Source: Zychaea mexicana (Eukaryota; Mucoromycota; Mucoromycetes; Mucorales; Lichtheimiaceae). Taken from it: DNA of 64,000 nucleotides. Under the pieces are notes generated by a model. It saw only the letters and a program-made list of their open reading frames with translations, was not told the origin of the DNA and searched no databases. The stretch spans positions 40,009 through 104,008 of the forward strand of contig NW_026516804.1 in the NCBI RefSeq assembly GCF_025766255.1, in the 5' to 3' direction. How positions within the stretch are numbered: position 1 is the stretch's first letter; the number at the start of each line of letters is the position of its first letter. The position numbers and the translations under genes are program-made. Shown here piece by piece: positions 46-37,287 of this stretch.

Positions 46-1508
46 ATGGCTCTTCCCGATTTTACTTATGAACCGCCTGTGCATGATACGGGCACCAACC
101 AAGAACACTCCATCTACACCTTTCAACCAACTGTGGTGACACGGGCTCGCATAGCCCGACTAGAATGAGTGTCGCTTGTTCATGCTCAGCGTCAACTAAG
201 CACTAGTGATGAAAAAAATTGTGCTACTTCTCTTGTGTTTGGCGTGTAGGCCGTTCTCCAGGCAGTGTCATGCTTGACATCAGCCCTGTGCCAGGCTCTT
301 TTGACAACGCCGTCGAAATACTGATGAAAGAATATCCTCTTAGCAATGGTGTCCTTACACACCGCGAAGGACAATGTGTAGTCGCTGAAATCAACCTCAG
401 AACTGAAGAACAAAGGACCAGTGCCATCAAGCAGGGCATCGAGTTCACACCAACCATAACGATCTGTACCACTCCTGCCTTGGCAAAGAATGCCACGATC
501 AAGAAGCTTCGCCTCACCCATCTCCTGCTACTCCACCCTTAAGATCTGGAACGCGGCTTGCAAGAAACGTTTCGTCCCTACGGTGACATCCTCGATGTCG
601 GTATCCATTGCAATCTAAGAACGAAAGCTTACATGGGCCAAGGATTCGCCGTCCTAGATATACAGCCACTACATAATCAACAACTCCACGCCCTTAGTCA
701 TCATATTCTTTGGTGCGGCAACCAGGAAGAGTTGATCTATGCCAATTTTGATCAGATGCTGCTCCACTGCTCGCGCTGCCATGAGCCAGGGCATGCCGTT
801 GCTGACTGCCTACGCGCCTGACGTAACCAGAAAGGATGCTTTAAGTGGGGTGCTCAGAGCCACTATGCTGCAAGCTGCCCCACTGTGTGAAACAGTGAGG
901 ACTGGACCCCTGGTGCCAACAAAATAAGCCGCCGCAAGACTGGTCACACGCGTGATCAAAACCCCTCGAAGGAGCTCCTGAAGTCTAAACACGCGACTGT
1001 AAAAGGCAAGCCCGTGGAACCGACCAACCGGTTTGCTCATCTGGAAAACTTGGATACCAATGACGACAAATTAGCAACCGACGCGGAAACCACCTAAGAA
1101 GAGGTGGTCGATTGCTCCCCCACTTTCATGCGATGAGAGTACCTTGAACAAGCACTTGACGACATCGTCATAGAATTTACGGACTATCAGACTGATAGAC
1201 TGATGATCCCAGCTGAAGAACAAGATCTAGTTTTGGAAGTCAACCCTCCTAAGGACTGGATAGATAGCATGGAACTCTCGGACACTGCCAAGGAGATCCT
1301 ACAAGATGCACACTTCCCTGCAGACCTGAAACAAGTCCTGTATGTCCGACTCTCACGCCAACGAGACATCAGCCTGCAAGAATATGAACAAAGTTTACTC
1401 TCAGACAACAGCTCAGGCTCCCCTTCCGACCTAAGCACACGCATACCTACAAAATCGCAGCTCGAATGCAATCCCAGTGATGATCAACCCTCACTCCTCT
1501 CTCAATAA
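46..1508 (+). pseudogene. LINE copy 1 ORF1 (nucleic-acid-binding, zinc knuckle), broken
   Basis: ORF1 opens at the ATG at 46 and runs about 40 codons to a stop. Coding then continues in changed frames (about 219-542, 558-821, 1203-1508). A single zinc knuckle is legible at about 770-815 (CSRCHEPGHAVADC, spacing C-x2-C-x4-H-x4-C), the motif by which LINE ORF1 proteins bind RNA. The last segment is acidic and Ser-rich, like the C-terminal tail of ORF1 in copy 2. At least three frame breaks are present, so no full-length protein can be made. Confidence 0.65.
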
Positions 1509-1513
1509 TTTTT

Positions 1514-4500
1514 ATGATAGTAAAAACCAACGATATCTCACTCGCGTCCATTAATTGCAATGGATTACTTACACCCAACAAAACACAACTCATTCGACAT
1601 ATCAAACAACATCAATCACATATCATTACTATGCAAGAAACACATATATCAACACCCTCACAGAAGAACAAATTCCACCGTTATTTCAACGCAACGCAAT
1701 CATTATAGACACATCATTGCAGCATCGTATCACTTAGCGCCGACCTCAATCTCACACAAATTTCAGTGTTCGATAACCCTCGACATCTTCTCGTTAAAGT
1801 CGAACACCACCAACGACTTTTTCAGCCTTTTTATATAGTTACCATCTATGCACCAGCAACGTCGCCGACCCAACAACGGCAATTTTTCACATCCCTCTAC
1901 AACTCAACCATCTTTAATCAACAACATCCCTATCCCGAACGATTGATTCTCTCTGGGGATTTCAACTTTAGCCACCAATGCTCAGGGTACCATCTCAACG
2001 CACTGTCAGCCTGGTTCACTATGCTACACCAACACGTCATCAACTGCATCAACCATGATCCGCAAGAGACACTGCAGCCGACGTTTCGTCGAGGTGATAT
2101 ACGATTTTCACCATTGACTACATCTATGCCGCTTCACCAGTTGTCCAAAATATGTTAAAGACCAGGGAAGTATTGTACGTTGCCAGTTCATGGTCCGATC
2201 ATGCATTATTGTCTGCAACCTTTAATTTGGGTCCCTCTCCCACCGGCAAAGGCTATTGGCGGGGCAATCCTCTGATTTTGGCTTCCAAGGACTTCCGACA
2301 TCAACTTGCAACTCAACTCACAGCTTTCTTCGCACGCAGCGACAGCACTTCAATACCGCAACAGCAATGGGAGGAACCGAAGCGTCTACTAAAGCGGCAG
2401 ATGCAAGAGTATTGCTGGCAACGCATCAATAAAACAACAGCTTACCCCAAACAACTACAATCGAAATGCAACTGGTTTTTATGGTCAAATCCACCCATCA
2501 CTACACGCATATGGCTCTTAAAGATAATTGAACAACAAATATTAGCAGCACAACATGAAGTTTGCGACACCCTCACTTTACGTGCAGGAGAGCACTGGCG
2601 GGAGCAAGGTGCGAAATCTGCTGGTTACCTCAAATGAACCATACAACAACGCACGTCACAGGCCAACATTGTCACTCTACAACATCCTCACACTGGCGAC
2701 ATATGTAACACAGTGGAATCGATGCATTCAGCCGTAACAGCTTTCTATGAACAGTTGTATACCCCTGACGACGTTGACGACTCAGCTATCCAACAACTGC
2801 AGCACAACATACCATCCTCAGCACACCTCAGAACCAACAGCAAAGAAAGCTTAATCGATCCCTTCAGCATTGAAGATCTCCAAGACAGAGCTAAACGAGC
2901 CCCACACCAAAGTAGCCCTAGAACCGACGGTTTACCATATGGCATTATTTAGAGGCTCGTATTCAAATACCCGGCAGCCAAAACACTTACATGTCAAGTA
3001 TATGAAGATGCATTGAAAAATGGTCTTTTTCCTGATTCTTAGACCGAAACCTGTATCCGTCTCCTCCCAAAAAAGGGCGATCTGACTACACTCAAGAATT
3101 GGTGGCCGATCAGTCTCATCAACTGTGATGCCAAGATATACACACAGCTGCTAAATAAGCGCGTCGTGCTGGCTGCTGCACCCCTGATTAACCCACAGCA
3201 AATGGGATTCATGCTGGGTCGCTTTATTGCAGAAAATGGCCTAGTAGCATGCCTTGTCATAGAACACGCCTCAAGCAATACGTCGTCAGCCATTAGCCTC
3301 CTACTCGACCAGGAAAAAGCGTATGATAGGATCCATCCACAGTACTTAGTTCAAACTTTGCAACACTTTGGTTTTCCCGATCAAATTATTAATAGCATCA
3401 ACTCACTGTTTTTCAACACGCGTATACGTATCAACATTAACGGTCATCTTAGCACACCATTTGCACAATAACGCGGATTACGACAAGGAGATCCACTGTC
3501 GCCGATCTTTTCAACCTGACTCTGGAGCCTTTGCTGCGCTCGTTACAAAGAGACGTATCATATCAAGGATATATCTTCACACCACCGAACAATGACATTG
3601 CACCAGCCACCATGCCCACCCCCGAGCCAATTAAAACACTCGTCTACGCGGATGAGATTCTTGTTTTCCTGCAATCTCCCGAGGATTTGCGCCGGGTTTT
3701 GTACCACATGGATGTCTATCAACGCGCTTCAAATGCCAAGTTCAATTAAGAAAAGACCCAAGCAATCTCTCTAGGAGGGGCACCACAACTTCGATCGAAT
3801 GCTTTGCTACACCAACATGGAATTCTGCCTTGTCACGATCGTACGCAGGCCGACCCCGTCACATATTTGGGCTATCCACTGACCTTCTCAACAACCCAAC
3901 TGAATACATTCATGAACCGGTTGCTGGAAGCGGTCAAGAACCAATGCAACATTCACTTGAGCCGCAACTTGTCTATCCGCGGCCGTGCCACCGTGCTAAA
4001 CACCTTGATTTTGTCAAAACTATGGCATGTTCTGTGTATCATTGGCGCACCACTGTCAGGCTTCCACCAAAAACTGAGAAGCACCATCAGCAGCTTCCTG
4101 ATGCATCGAATGTTCCCACACGTGTCCTATCAGAAACTATGTGCACCACGACACCAGGGTGGGATTGGCTTATTGGACCCCATTTTACAACAAAATGCGC
4201 TCCAGCTAAGGTGGATTCAACTGATGCTGGATGAAAGCGGTATGCTCCCACAACATATTCTATATCTGATCCATCGACTACTTGTCATCAAAAAGTAATC
4301 CGCAGACCACTGGCTGGTCTTGTTCTCTCCAGCTAGTCGTAAACAACGAGCGTATGAATCAGCATCGCCAGTTGCCTTGGTCCTTCATGCCATTGATGTG
4401 GCTGGTTTGTCCTAGGATACACTCGACAACTTAACACCTGCAACAGCATTAGAATCACCACTCTCTGTCATCATTCAGCCATCATCCGACAACCCAGCAC

Positions 4501-30426: not shown

Positions 30427-31728
30427 TTAGCTGATGCTTCGGGGTGATTTCACAACCCAAGGAACACCATGCTTTTGCGTCCACGCAAAACATGCGCGAT
30501 CTTGTTGTTTGCACAATGTCATGAGCACCTCTCGTTGAGCAAGCGCGACTATTGTCTCCCAATCATCAATCAGATGACATTCCTTCATTTCAAAGACGGA
30601 TAGGTTCGGACAATACTGTGCATACGCGCGGATGGCGGCGTTGGTGATACGATGACAGCTATTGACGGATATACGCTCTAGATGACGGTTGCGATGTTGA
30701 GCCAGCAGTAGCATACATTCATCATCGATCTGACAGCCTGCTAATCCCAAAACAGTGACGTTTGTGTGCATTGCAATAAGCCGAATCGACTTTATGGTGA
30801 TACGATGTCTTTCACGGACACGACCCACGTTCAAATGCTTTAATGCCCGACATTGCATTGCGATCGCCGAGATCGAAACATCTGATATCAGTCCACACGC
30901 ACGCAAGTCCAAGTGCTCCAACTGTGAGCATTGCTTAGCAACTTGAAGAATACACTCGTCCGTGATCTGGAAGCAGCCTGCTAGTGATATTTGAGTGAGT
31001 TGGCCATGCTGAATGAACGGTGCCAGCGTTGCATGCTTGACATGGTCGCAAATGTACAATTCAATATGCTCGAGACGATTGCAGTGGCGTGCTATTTTAT
31101 CGCAGAGCAGGTCGCTGATTGTGCTCCTTTTCACTTTTTGTATCGTCAAGGATCGTAATACTGAGCGATAGAATGGCATATTGGATGGTGGTGGTGATGA
31201 TGATGATGATAACGATGACTGGGGAGCTATTGCGGCTTGCTTTTCGTTGGAGTCGTTGAGCCGCATGTCATCGCCCATTACTCGCTCCTCCTCGTCTACG
31301 GGTGTTGTGGGTGGCGTAAATAAAAACTCTAGGCAGTTGGAGAAAAGGTTGGTACGGCGAATGGTTGGATTGTTGGCTACGGCGAGTGAAGATGCTGTGC
31401 TGGTACTGGTACTGTTGACGGGAGTATCATTTGCTGCATCGCCCTGACCGTGCGGAATTTCCCCTACAATGTTGGCAAACTTGACTAACGCATCGTAATT
31501 CGATTCGTCAAAAGAAACGTCGCGCCATAGGAGTCGCGCTGCGCAATCGTGCCACAGTTGATTCACTCGCAAACACTGTAGCAATCCAACAAAAGCCCTC
31601 TTTTTCGTCGTTGCTGTGGAGTCGGGAGCAACAAACGCTAGGATGTGGCTCACAATTTCGGGTATGAGTAATGCTGGGTGTGGCGGGCAAAAAGTGGTTG
31701 TTGGCATGTTCGGTTTCGTGATATACAT
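30427..31728 (-). CDS. F-box/LRR protein, AMN1-like
   Basis: A single-exon gene. I chose the start MYITKPNMPTTTF at 31728 (433 residues); the frame stays open upstream to 31959 but that part is a Phe/Leu-rich translation of a purine-rich promoter tract. An F-box-like segment (LLIPEIVSHILAFV ... VNQLWHDCAARLLWRDVSF) is followed by a Ser/Thr/Asn-rich spacer and then leucine-rich repeats: LEHIELYICDHVKHATL, LTQISLAGCFQITDECILQV, LEHLDLRACGLISDVSISAI, VTVLGLAGCQIDDECMLLLA and LERISVNSCHRITNAAIRAY. The repeat pattern, with LNVGRVRERHRITIKSI, resembles the yeast mitotic-exit antagonist Amn1. A role as an SCF substrate receptor or cell-cycle inhibitor is an inference from the family. Confidence 0.8.
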   Translation of the reverse strand: MYITKPNMPTTTFCPPHPALLIPEIVSHILAFVAPDSTATTKKRAFVGLLQCLRVNQLWHDCAARLLWRDVSFDESNYDALVKFANIVGEIPHGQGDAANDTPVNSTSTSTASSLAVANNPTIRRTNLFSNCLEFLFTPPTTPVDEEERVMGDDMRLNDSNEKQAAIAPQSSLSSSSSPPPSNMPFYRSVLRSLTIQKVKRSTISDLLCDKIARHCNRLEHIELYICDHVKHATLAPFIQHGQLTQISLAGCFQITDECILQVAKQCSQLEHLDLRACGLISDVSISAIAMQCRALKHLNVGRVRERHRITIKSIRLIAMHTNVTVLGLAGCQIDDECMLLLAQHRNRHLERISVNSCHRITNAAIRAYAQYCPNLSVFEMKECHLIDDWETIVALAQREVLMTLCKQQDRACFAWTQKHGVPWVVKSPRSIS

Positions 31729-32243
31729 TGGTTCTCTCTTTAACTGTTGGATTACTGTAGTTGCTTCCAAAAGTAGCGCGTCGTAAGGGCAGGAGTTGTG
31801 TAAGCGAATAAGCGGATAAGTGAACGAATGGAAAGGATAAATATAGAGGCTATAGACGAAAGGAAAGGACGGGGTGAAAGAAGAAAAGAAAAAGAAGAAT
31901 AGAAGAAAAGACAAAAATGCACGGATGAATAGAAGAAACAAGAATCGGACGGTACCCAAGAGCTTGGATACAAGAACGCATTACATGATGTTCGCATTCT
32001 TCATTCATTTATTTGTTTTTTCCGATAGTACATGGTTGCTTCTTACTTGGCGCCCTCGCCTCCCCGCTCCCCTTATAATCTAACGATCCTCCCGTCCCCC
32101 TGTGTTTTCCTAATTGAGCAGGCTCAGGGTTCAATTCCTCTGTACAATTGCCGCTCTTCAAAACGGATCGGGACAACCATACGATCGCGAAGTGTCTATG
32201 TTCATGAACAGATATAGCAAAAAAATAAGAGGACAATGGTCCA
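31729..32243. other. Promoter of the AMN1-like gene and 3' flank of the fusion gene
   Basis: 515 bases between two minus-strand genes. A purine-rich plus-strand tract (about 31850-31940, CT-rich on the coding strand) fits a fungal core promoter upstream of the AMN1-like start. No other feature was seen. Confidence 0.45.
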
Positions 32244-34884
32244 TTAGATATTGGTGTTGAAAAGGTGGTGTAATAAATAAAGTACGTAAGCTAGGATCTG
32301 GAAAAACAAAAGCACCTGAAAGTAAGAAGAATCTTGTTGCTGCTTTTATAGTTACCTGACATTGTTCAGCGCTTAAACTACATTCTTGGCACACAAATTC
32401 TTCCAAAGATCCATACTTTGTCCGAATATGCTTTATGGTCAACAGGATTCCAGGCATACTATCGTAATTTCCGTTGTTTCAGGGCCTTTACTGTTCGCTC
32501 GAAATAGAAAAAGTCAAGATGCCGCACTTCCTGACACATGCACTTACGATGCCGTCAACAATTCTTCAAGTTGTGCGGGTGTAATTCTGGACTCCTTTGC
32601 ATGTTCCTCGATCCTTTTTTTCGTCTCTACAGTACATGTATACATTAGTGAAGCTGCTTTAAATATGCAGTAGTTCAAAAAGAAAAGTATTATCGAAGGC
32701 ATCAACCGAGCCTTACCCCAGATACCCAAATTCGTTAAACCGTATTCGTTGACGATGATGTCTTCATCAACACCGCATAGGCTAAGCAGAAGCATGAAAA
32801 ACAGCCCTGTACGGTCTTTTCCGATACGGCAATGTACCAGGATGCCATCGTCCGGATGCTCCAGTAGGTACAGGAAAATCTTACGGTACTGCTTCTTTGC
32901 ACGATATAGCATTTCAGTGTAGCCTTTCCAATATGCCAATTGTTGAATTTCAATTGTTAATACAGTGCTGTAAGTAATAATTAAAACTGCTGCAAGTTAC
33001 CCTTGCAGACGCCCTCGGGTCCCTGGAAGAAGACACGGAGATTCTTTTCCTGATTTCCAGGTGCAAAATCTTCGTCGGTAAACACACCGGAAGGATGATG
33101 TGTGATTCCAGGAATGTCACTAGATAGTCTCACACGATCCAGGTCTACTTTTAGCTTTTCTCTCTTTCTCTACCTTCGTTACTTCATTCACAACTTATCA
33201 CTCATGTGAATGCTAATGCAACCTACGGCATTCTTTCACTGTCGCCCTTCATTTCAGCGTCAGATCGAAAATCAAAAACAGCAGTTATTCCCAAGTGGTG
33301 TAACGTTTGAATACCCTGTTCCGTGATACCCCCAAGTCTACATGGAATTTATACAATTAGAAAAGTGAGGGGCAGCAGCAGGAATAATGTCAGCTCAAAC
33401 ATATATCGACTGCAGCGAATAAAAGAAACCTACTGTGCCGATCGAAACACGGTACGCTCACGCACATATCCGCTACCGTCTTTGAGAGGCCATCCACCTA
33501 TATCACGAAAGTTCTTGACTCCATCCACGTCAACCCAACGTGGAATACAGATACTATTGTGATGGCCAAATTTTTGAGCTCGTTCAAAAGCACTGTTCTC
33601 ATGCTTCTCGAGGTGGCTAGTGATGATAGAGATCAGTTCCTCTTCCTTGCCGTCAAACGTATGATTGGCTTCTGGTATAAGCTCAAGAGTATGGTTTGAT
33701 ACTTTGTTGGCAATCATGGCTGCATTGTCAGCTGTCACCACCTATTCCGCAAAAGTATACTTGTATGAATCCTAGATTTCAATTTAGTAAAAAGTCAGAT
33801 ATTACCGTATCATTGAGACCATGACATGTCAATACACAGGTTGCCTTGGAAATTCTGGATACTATATACGAGGTGACAAGGACACTATTTAGTCAAAAGA
33901 TGAAAAGCAATCGATCTATACAATTGTATATCTAGAAAGGGTTCACTACCATGTGAGTTATCCCAAGAAGCATAAGCAGCAACGTCTGCCTGAGTGACTT
34001 TGACTTTGAATAGCTGTCCATTTTTATCCACTGGCCATTCAAAGTAGCCCTGACAATAATGCAACAAGTTAGCAGCATGCTGATACAAGAAACGGTTCTG
34101 GCTCATGTTTTTTGCTAGCTATACATGGTACCATATTACCTTGTCAGCAAGATCTTGTTTTGCTGAATCTTTGAGTCGACTGCTATCACCCATCTTGTAT
34201 CTCGCAGCAATATCAACTACGTGTGACAACGGGGGTGCTTCACGCAAGTCAGCTGCATATTTTAATGCAGCAATAGCACCTATTTTGGGTATTTTTTTTC
34301 TGTGAGTGATACAACCAGCGAGCCTCAAAATGCTGAGCACTATTCTTTATACCTCGCGAATGACCGATGACGGTAAACACGTTATAGCCTTGTTCTTTAA
34401 AATAGTTTGCCACAGTATAGATATCATGCGCATTGTCCTAATGTATAAGTAATAGCAGATAGATGTATTTCAATAAAAAGAACAACGAACGAATTGAGCA
34501 ATCCGTGACAGATGATAGCTTACACTCATATTGTTATATTTAGGTTTGCCTCCACTTTCACCGCTTCCGCGAAAGTCAAAGCGAAAAGAAGAGTAAGGCA
34601 GTCTTTGAGCCAGCAGTGGAAGAAAATAATAATTCTTGTGACCTAGTTTTGATGGTTCGCAATATGTGTCATTTAGAAGTTTGCTGTTAGTTGCTTAGCA
34701 ATACGTACAGGGCTGCCCCAGAAAAGGCTGACAGCAGGTTAAGAGAGCTAAAAAAAGGAATCGCAATAGTACCCGGTGCACCGTGTGTAATGAGCACTAA
34801 GCGCTTGTCAGATCCCCCTTTGTCATTAAGAATGCCGGCAATGATCTCTTGTCCTGGAATTTCTATACGTTTTTCTGCTGTCAT
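32244..34884 (-). CDS. Alpha/beta hydrolase fused to a tyrosine phosphatase (FRDIGG type)
   Basis: Thirteen exons (34773-34884, 34524-34642, 34353-34437, 34140-34279, 33950-34049, 33806-33861, 33434-33741, 33240-33337, 33001-33147, 32717-32923, 32548-32656, 32356-32458, 32244-32315) sum to exactly 551 residues. Residues 1 to ~265 form an alpha/beta hydrolase: LVLITHGAPGHKNYYFLPLL, FRFDFRGSGES, nucleophile in FTVIGHSRGAIAAL (Ser ~104), Asp in LTCHGLNDTVV (~203), His in IPEANHTFDG (~231). Residues ~270-551 are a Tyr-phosphatase: VKNFRDIGGWPLKDGS, VFDFRSDAEM and the P-loop HCRIGKDRTG (Cys ~420, Arg ~426). A single exon (33434-33741) spans the domain junction, so this is one gene. The last exon encodes a hydrophobic end (VLLFFQILAYVLYLLHH), a possible tail anchor. 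The exon joint near 33147/33240 is the least certain. Confidence 0.85.
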
Positions 34885-35213: not shown

Positions 35214-37287
35214 TTAAGGGGTGCATCTGCCAGTGTAACGAGGGTACAACGAGCATTCGCGGACAGTGTAGCGGTTCAACAACCAGGCGAGGAAACGTTC
35301 GACACCCAGACCGTAACCACCGTGGGGAGTGGTACCGTACTTGCGCTGATCAGTGTACCAGTAGTAAGGCGAGGGGTCAATGCCTTCCTTCTTGTATGCC
35401 TCCAACAGCTCCTCCTACAGCGGCCAAAACAAAATAACATAAGTATGCACAATAAGCAACTAGGGCTTAGATTCAACAAAGGATAAACTTACTCTATCGT
35501 TCATTCTCATACTGCCACCGACAATTTCACCAACGCCAGGCATCAAAACATCTACACTTTCGGTAATGCCTCGGTCGTCAGCGCATTTCTGCATGTAAAA
35601 GGCCTTGATATCGGCAGGGAAGTGGGTCAAGAGAATAGGACGGTTGATCTTATCAGTCATGGCGCGCTCAGGAGCTTCAGGGATATCTTCGCCGAATTCG
35701 TAGAAAGAGCCGTCTTCCTTTTTGATGTCATTCTCCTTCAAATACTTGATAGCATCGGCATACTTCATGCGCAAGAAGGGGCGAGCAGGTGGCTGGAAGC
35801 CAGGGTTAAGCTGCTCAATCAGCTTGCGGGTAGGTTCGTGGGCCATGATACGGTCAATCACGTCACAGATCAAATCCTCCAAACAATCCAACATTTCATC
35901 AAAGTTCAGGAATGCCATCTCGGCTTCCAAGTGAGAGTATTCCGACAAATGTCTTCGCGTATGCGACTTTTCGGCACGGTATGATTCTGCCAAGCAAAAG
36001 ACGTCACCGAGCGAGGGCAAGCACGTCTCCAAGTAGAGCTGCGACGATTGTGTCAGATAAGCCTTTTCGCCATAGTAGTTGAATTCAAACAGGGTGGAAC
36101 CACCTTCGACCTGGGTTTGCACCATGCAAGGAGGCGTCACTTCAGTGTAACCGCGTGAGTCGTAGTGAGCACGGAATGCCTTGATCACTTCGGCACGAGC
36201 CTTCAAGACAGCAGATGCGGTCTCACCACGGAGAACAAGGTGGCGGTTGTCCAACAAATACGAGGGATCAGCATCGGCAGAGACTTTGTTGTTGAAGGCT
36301 TCATCACCACCAGGAGCCTTGCCAACAACATACCAGTAGTCAACAACCAACTCGTGGTTATCAGGTGCCTGGAGTATCGTTTGCCCAGATATTGTCAGTT
36401 AACTCGTCTCCATCTTCCTAATGCGTTGATTGTTTGGAGGATACTTACCGTCTTGCCTTCGGGAAGAGCGTTAATGACACCGTGAACGGTGATGGTGGAT
36501 TCGACGGTGAGGGTAATAGCGTCATAGGTGTGGCACTACCTCATGGTTCAGTTATCCAAGTTTTCGCGTGATATGCAAACCCAGCCCTTTTTTATCAGCA
36601 TCTTTACCTGCTTTCCAGTCAACACACACTGGAGATAGCCAGAGCCGTCACGAAGGATAACGAACATCATGTCCTTGCCCTGAACACGAAGACGATGGAC
36701 CCAACCAGAGACCTTGACGCGCTTACCACGCGATTCAACGCCTTGTCTAATTTTGATCTATACGTACAAAAAAAAACAGACAATCAATTTCTGATTTTTT
36801 CTTCTTTCGCATATCTACTACACAAAGCGATTCTTCTTTACCTTATCAGCCTTGGGAAGGGTTTCATCTTCAGTCAAAACGATGGATTTAGCCTGCTCAA
36901 GAACCTTGGCCTCTTCCTCAGCCTTCTTGGCCTGTTCTTCTTCTTGCTTTTGCTTTTGTTCCTCCAGCTTCTTAGCCTTGCGCTGTTGTTCAAGAAGGGA
37001 CTTTTTGGCCTTCTTCAAAGCGGCACCCGAGATATCCTTGTAGCCTTCGGCATCCTTCTTTACTTGGATTTTGGCATTGTCGCCACCCTTTTCAACAGCC
37101 TTGAGAGCCGTCTTGAAAGGAGACGATTCGGTACCGTTGCCAGTCTCGTCGGAACCGGCAAGTTCATCGACATACACAACTGTTTTATTAAGAAAAAAAC
37201 ACAACAACGCGAGTTTTAGTATTGTAATGGTGTAATGTCACGTTGTGTTTTTCACTGTGCTTCCTTACTGTCTGCTGGTGAAGCCAT
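35214..37287 (-). CDS. DED81: Asparaginyl-tRNA synthetase, cytoplasmic
   Basis: Class II synthetase charging tRNA-Asn. Six exons (37269-37287, 36842-37179, 36608-36757, 36449-36535, 35493-36368, 35214-35414) join in frame to 556 residues. The N-terminal extension ([20 protein letters not shown], then a Lys/Glu/Gln-rich helix) is typical of eukaryotic cytosolic AsnRS. The OB-fold anticodon domain holds [20 protein letters not shown]. The catalytic core has [40 protein letters not shown] (motif 2), [26 protein letters not shown] and [15 protein letters not shown] (motif 3). Exon 1 is only 19 nt (six codons). Divergent from the molybdopterin synthase gene, ATG-to-ATG distance 162 bp. Confidence 0.97.

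Follow-up and report, generated by a model that had tools for sequence, protein, structure and literature searches.

A gene of Zychaea mexicana that joins an alpha/beta serine hydrolase to a PtpB/LipA-type phosphatase, and its relatives among fungi

Gene model and domains of the fusion

The window analyzed here is a 64,000-nucleotide stretch of Zychaea mexicana DNA (C48:40009-104008, from a 50.3-Mb genome in 305 contigs), in which one minus-strand gene encodes an alpha/beta hydrolase and a phosphatase in a single protein. Manual splicing, verified with a script, gave 13 exons and 12 introns from 34884 to 32124 (2761 bp with introns) and a protein of 536 amino acids (aa). The frame opens with the ATG at 34884, runs without internal stop, and closes with a stop codon ending at 32124; all 12 introns are GT-AG, with sizes of 64-160 nt. 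Within this one frame lie GHSRG (Ser104), LND (Asp203), EANH (His231), FRDIGG (282-287), and HCRIGKDRTG (414-423). Pfam searches with the 536-aa protein returned PF13350 at 190.7 bits (cut-off 22.2; profile positions 2 to 239 of 240), Hydrolase_4 at 45.0 bits (cut-off 27), and Abhydrolase_1 at 35.2 bits (cut-off 25.8). The model of the whole gene (32124..34884) draws on the GT-AG introns, the open spliced frame, the two Pfam domains, and the relatives described below. The original prediction, that a hydrolase with a complete triad and a phosphatase with a complete P-loop are fused in a single gene, was borne out by this model.

In the spliced model, the hydrolase half begins with exon 1 (34773..34884), which runs from the ATG as far as HGAPG, and continues through exon 2 (34524..34642; HKNYYF...RFDFRGSGES), exon 3 (34353..34437), exons 4 and 5 (34140..34279 and 33950..34049), and exon 6 (33806..33861), the last containing GLND with Asp203. 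Exon 3 encodes the nucleophile elbow GHSRG, aligning with the nucleophile of the Lactobacillus cinnamoyl esterase LJ0536. Exon 7 (33434..33741) begins at Val205 and, as had been predicted, carries the hydrolase His231 and, after the linker, the phosphatase FRDIGG motif, extending beyond the latter in a single frame. The remainder of the phosphatase is encoded by exon 8 (33227..33337; VFDFRSDAE), exon 9 (33001..33119), exon 10 (32717..32923), which contains the P-loop, exon 11 (32548..32626), exon 12 (32356..32458), and exon 13 (32124..32195). For intron 8 (33226-33120), the frame stays open with any of 10 distinct GT/AG pairs, of which 33226/33120 was preferred, as it yields the length and the "DIPGITHHP" context seen in relatives. 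Because this choice was made by homologue fit, residues ~337-350 are the least certain part of the model.

The 3' end had been placed at 32244, which is very probably wrong. Exon 13 carries the conserved C-terminus VVPIRFEERQLYRG and the stop; its product, TLRDRMVVPIRFEERQLYRGIEP-stop, matches the C-termini of relatives, for example ...LIRELMIVPIRFEERQLYRPKM in P0005, and likewise that of a further copy, on contig C265 of this genome. For comparison across species, an alignment of 140 proteins was used, comprising 138 database proteins of at least 450 aa and the two copies from this genome, with 49 shorter and 4 other proteins excluded. An EE-x-QL-x-R motif is present in 25 of the 140, namely both Z. 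mexicana copies and 23 Mucorales/Umbelopsis-type relatives. Together with the changed intron 8, the new last exon raised the PF13350 score from 180.6 to 190.7 bits. The exon that it replaces, 32244-32315, was rejected, as its tail (VLLFFQILAYVLYLLHHLFNTNI) finds no match in any of the 140 aligned proteins. That tail is hydrophobic (19-residue hydrophobicity 1.96) and would suggest a tail anchor; the last 30 residues are hydrophobic in just two aligned proteins, P0053 and P0054, both of which are models ending directly after the P-loop. An alternative splice form may use this exon.

The assignment of the phosphatase to a group marked by FRDIGG held and could be narrowed to the PtpB/LipA type, the atypical lipid phosphatases (ALPs), with the P-loop HCxxGKDRTG. 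The window protein contains a PF13350-type domain, as expected for the PtpB fold, together with HCRIGKDRTG (414-423) for the ALP motif HCXXGKDR[TA]G, and no WPD string was found in the 536 aa, which is likewise what the ALP definition demands. In section 5 of Beresford 2010 (PMC3091653), which introduced the name, ALPs are described as consisting of the phosphatase domain only, and here a hydrolase lies N-terminal to it. Judged by sequence, this is an ALP-type domain set in a different architecture, and the protein is atypical as a member. Against PF00102, the classical protein tyrosine phosphatases (cut-off 20.9), the 536-aa model gave no match at E 0.01 or better, and an earlier 548-aa model scored 14.1 bits, under the cut-off. 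The second copy and P0006 did pass it (22.9 and 24.6 bits, respectively), with PF13350 far higher in both.

The adjoining gene at 35463-36398 (minus strand) has a class II (D, K, N) tRNA synthetase domain (PF00152, 188.9 bits); we presume that it may be an asparaginyl-tRNA synthetase. On the other side, a minus-strand open reading frame at 30427-31980 contains leucine-rich repeats (PF12799, 27.6 bits; cut-off 27). Searches of the whole window for Rfam families (gathering threshold) and for tRNA genes found none.

Occurrence, copies, and origin of the fusion

To establish how widely the same architecture occurs, as the original prediction had proposed, ~5.8 billion proteins were searched. This search gave 141 matches (7999 candidates scored), and for 69 of the best 120 the precomputed Pfam column shows both types of domain; a profile search, in which 7996 candidates were scored, gave 746 matches, of which the best 120 were likewise used. 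Owners among the matches listed include Rhizomucor, Apophysomyces, Mucor, Rhizopus, Cunninghamella, Lichtheimia, Umbelopsis, Endogone, Rhizophagus, Geosiphon, many Mortierellales, Calcarisporiella, Phlyctochytrium, Blyttiomyces, Syncephalis, Basidiobolus, Saitoella, Protomyces, Lipomyces, Debaryomyces, Candida tropicalis, Lachancea, and Henningerozyma. We take these to represent the Mucoromycota, Glomeromycetes, Mortierellales, Zoopagomycota, chytrids, Taphrinomycotina, and yeasts. Because fused proteins of this kind occur in many fungi, chance is excluded as their source, and in the sequence databases the architecture appears to be common among fungi. Several relatives have frames on source contigs that are barely longer (P0005, 542 aa on at most 2021 bp; P0022, 538 aa on 1766 bp; P0044, 561 aa on 1686 bp). 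These contigs, shorter than the 2761 bp of the window gene with its introns, are presumably transcript assemblies, although distant species may have genes with few introns. Among the literature matches listed, no description of a hydrolase-phosphatase fusion was found and PMC3091653 alone was relevant; the fusion is apparently undescribed.

Exon-level searches of the Z. mexicana genome with the Rhizomucor fusion P0001 and a stand-alone hydrolase, P0193, in which the best candidates were scored, identified at least three genes: the window gene and one each on contigs C265 and C291. The gene on C265 (L008, G000:C265:10000-16500, 1199-3750, plus strand) is a second, intact fusion of 542 aa that is 45.8% identical to the window copy and has an intron between the coding parts of the two domains. 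Its identity to partial proteins of Fennellomyces (P0195) and Circinella (P0189) is 90.3% over 227 and 89.5% over 277 aligned residues, respectively. The gene on C291 (L009, G000:C291:158000-163500, about 1966-3463, plus strand) carries a PF13350 phosphatase only and is distant from the fusions. In a FastTree analysis (134 sequences, 524 columns, midpoint root), Mucorales paralogues form two groups, one with the window copy (support 0.953) and the other with the C265 copy (0.79); support for the exact neighbour of the window copy is low (0.19). The branch leading to the window copy has a length of 0.72, versus 0.11 for the C265 copy, and at the 74 columns conserved at 80% or more the window copy deviates at 10 (64 retained) and the C265 copy at 2. 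At higher stringency, the window copy retains 38 of 40 columns conserved at 90% and 27 of 27 at 95% or more. The window copy is an old, fast-evolving duplicate next to a more conserved C265 copy.

The catalytic residues of both halves are widely kept across the 140 aligned proteins. In the hydrolase, 136 proteins have Ser, 128 have Asp as the acid and 9 have Glu instead, and His is invariant (140); in the P-loop, Cys is present in 138, Lys in 139, and Asp and Arg in all 140. All seven residues are intact in 122 proteins, with Glu not counted. The 18 exceptions comprise nine with Glu for Asp alone, six apparently faulty gene models (P0031, P0032, P0033, P0173, P0178, and P0183), and three fused paralogues in which the nucleophile motif is gapless with Gly in place of Ser: P0006 (GFGRG), P0008 (GHGRG), and P0024 (AYGRG), from Rhizopus microsporus, Mucor flavus, and Mucor circinelloides, respectively. 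This trio forms a clade (support 1.0) with P0012, which keeps Ser (GYSKG), and P0033, in whose model the region is missing; the P-loop is intact in all five. Judged by the deposited gene models, some Mucor and Rhizopus duplicates thus seem to have given up hydrolase chemistry and kept the phosphatase, which would make them natural pseudo-hydrolases.

With respect to origin, a hydrolase tree of 161 sequences, whose root was placed by choice on P0087 and P0110, united 51 fusions and 7 stand-alone models of early-diverging fungi in one clade (0.995); some of these seven resemble broken gene models. Outside it, another clade unites 99 stand-alone sequences (0.911). A single fusion event fits these data because the 51 fusions share one hydrolase clade. 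The phosphatase tree (76 domains, midpoint root) gives a less clear picture: the common node of the fusions (0.791) includes seven otherwise-labelled sequences, P0085, P0090, P0109, P0182, P0186, P0187, and P0191, of which P0182, P0186, P0187, and P0191 start within the hydrolase half and appear to be truncated fusions. An early fusion followed by later separation in some lineages is possible. Fission in Basidiomycota is a tentative suggestion, and the Serendipita phosphatase P0084, which lies just outside the node of the fusions, counts against it. The stand-alone hydrolase relatives (P0198-P0307) are mostly from Agaricomycetes, and many are deposited as "ectomycorrhiza-regulated esterase"; a literature search on that name found no paper using it among the matches listed.

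Proposed function and rival explanations

The hydrolase half has the features of an alpha/beta serine hydrolase, with GxSxG and with Ser104, Asp203, and His231 in order and aligned with LJ0536. We propose that the fusion would act as one soluble protein in which two working active sites are joined by a flexible tether. In its N-terminal half (~1-255), a feruloyl-esterase/lipase-like serine hydrolase would cut a carboxylic ester via Ser104-His231-Asp203. In its C-terminal half (~270-525), Cys415 of a PtpB/LipA-type cysteine phosphatase would attack a phosphate monoester, the phosphate being bound by Lys419 and Arg421, with Asp420 as the putative general acid. Jointly, the two sites would degrade a phosphorylated amphiphile, presumably by stepwise removal of phosphate and acyl chain from a phosphoinositide or lyso-phospholipid. 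We give this reading a probability of about 0.5. If both sites do act on one molecule, the fusion would represent an old fungal route for removing phosphate and acyl groups together, and would offer a clue both to the job of fungal PF13350 phosphatases and to what the Agaricomycete "ectomycorrhiza-regulated esterases" act on. Paralogues without the nucleophile Ser, together with the copy that has Arg416, are natural experiments through which the two activities can be studied one at a time.

Several observations weigh against this proposal. The literature matches listed contain no assay of a fungal fusion. With P0001 as a stand-in for the window copy, structure prediction gave a pTM of 0.54 and therefore no fixed arrangement of the two sites. 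No membrane anchor was seen in the 536-aa model, in which the top 19-residue hydrophobicity (1.81) lies within the phosphatase fold. From the three sister paralogues without the hydrolase Ser, it follows that the two activities need not be coupled. Finally, P0085 (605 aa) joins a PF13350-type phosphatase to a glucosyl-3-phosphoglycerate synthase (NF010496, 304.8 bits; cut-off 262), and its phosphatase groups inside the fungal fusions (path supports 0.22, 0.808, and 0.985, then 0.791 for the whole group), which suggests sugar-phosphate substrates. It is mainly because of this fusion and its tree position that a sugar phosphate is kept as an option. The same bifunctional protein could then act on small soluble metabolites, such as acylated and phosphorylated sugars or glycerates, and not on membrane lipids, a possibility that we hold to be real but distinctly less probable than the lipid proposal. 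It is also in keeping with the lack of any visible membrane-binding part in the window protein and with the nearest solved hydrolases, which include hydroxycinnamoyl and chlorogenic acid esterases besides lipases. P0085, however, represents a single cluster of 20 sequences, and the family members tested, from bacteria and Leishmania, are reported in PMC3091653 to act on phosphoinositides. The related data thus point both ways as to whether the substrate would be a lipid.

That the hydrolase half serves the phosphatase mainly through binding or regulation, with its own chemistry dispensable, would account for the Gly nucleophile in three of the five members of the Mucorales paralogue clade, all five with intact P-loops. 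We consider this improbable, since Ser is kept in the window gene and nearly all aligned proteins and His in every one, and since M. flavus and R. microsporus also own Ser-intact copies (P0014, and P0026 and P0040, respectively). The long branch of the window copy and its ten deviations are what a decaying duplicate without function might display, but its 13 exons are open, its splice sites are all GT-AG, its catalytic residues are kept, and so is every one of the most conserved columns, which makes decay very unlikely. Least credible of all is a misreading of two adjacent genes as one. Separate half models do exist in Dichotomocladium (P0283/P0177) and Blakeslea (P0298/P0047), from which it follows that annotation splitting or true fission occurs, and their source contigs are equally long. 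In the window, by contrast, exon 7 includes both domain ends, and no in-frame Met lies between His231 and FRDIGG, Met213 being in this exon but upstream of His231 and the following Met being residue 336. Fused proteins across fungi, and whole frames on transcript-length contigs in relatives, likewise argue for one gene.

Comparison with known systems

At P-loop position 2, the window copy has Arg416, whereas Thr, Ser, or Ala occupies this position in 134 of 138 readable fused P-loops. The only other basic residue among the 138 is the Lys of Saitoella P0134 (HCKAGKDR); outside them, P0181 (Entrophospora, 427 aa) has Lys and the stand-alone P0099, P0106, and P0108 have Arg. According to section 8 of PMC3091653, Lys at this position was associated with a broader phosphoinositide range; the effect varied among the enzymes tested and in one enzyme did not extend to multiply phosphorylated substrates. 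By analogy, a shifted phosphoinositide range for the Arg416 copy is a guess. The fuller scenario is also doubtful: an overlooked, old two-activity enzyme of phospholipid turnover, with the C265 copy conserved and the phosphatase of the window copy shifted towards multiply phosphorylated phosphoinositides.

In ALPs (PtpB/LipA; Pfam PF13350, Y_phosphatase3), as described in PMC3091653, the phosphatase stands alone, whereas in the window protein a serine hydrolase lies in front of it. Conversely, the bacterial cinnamoyl/feruloyl esterases and lipases (LJ0536, Est1E, and TTL lipase; Hydrolase_4) share ~20% identity with the hydrolase half, and their solved chains, unlike the window protein, are without a phosphatase part. 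The Agaricomycete "ectomycorrhiza-regulated esterases," the closest stand-alone hydrolase relatives listed outside early-diverging fungi, reach up to 47% identity (Rhizomucor query) and, in contrast to the fusions, also lack the phosphatase. The uncharacterised fused proteins, such as Rhizomucor pusillus P0001 and Debaryomyces hansenii DEHA2D07678p, have the identical two domains in the identical order; from these the window copy is set apart by its ~50% identity to its nearest relatives and by the Arg416 of its P-loop.
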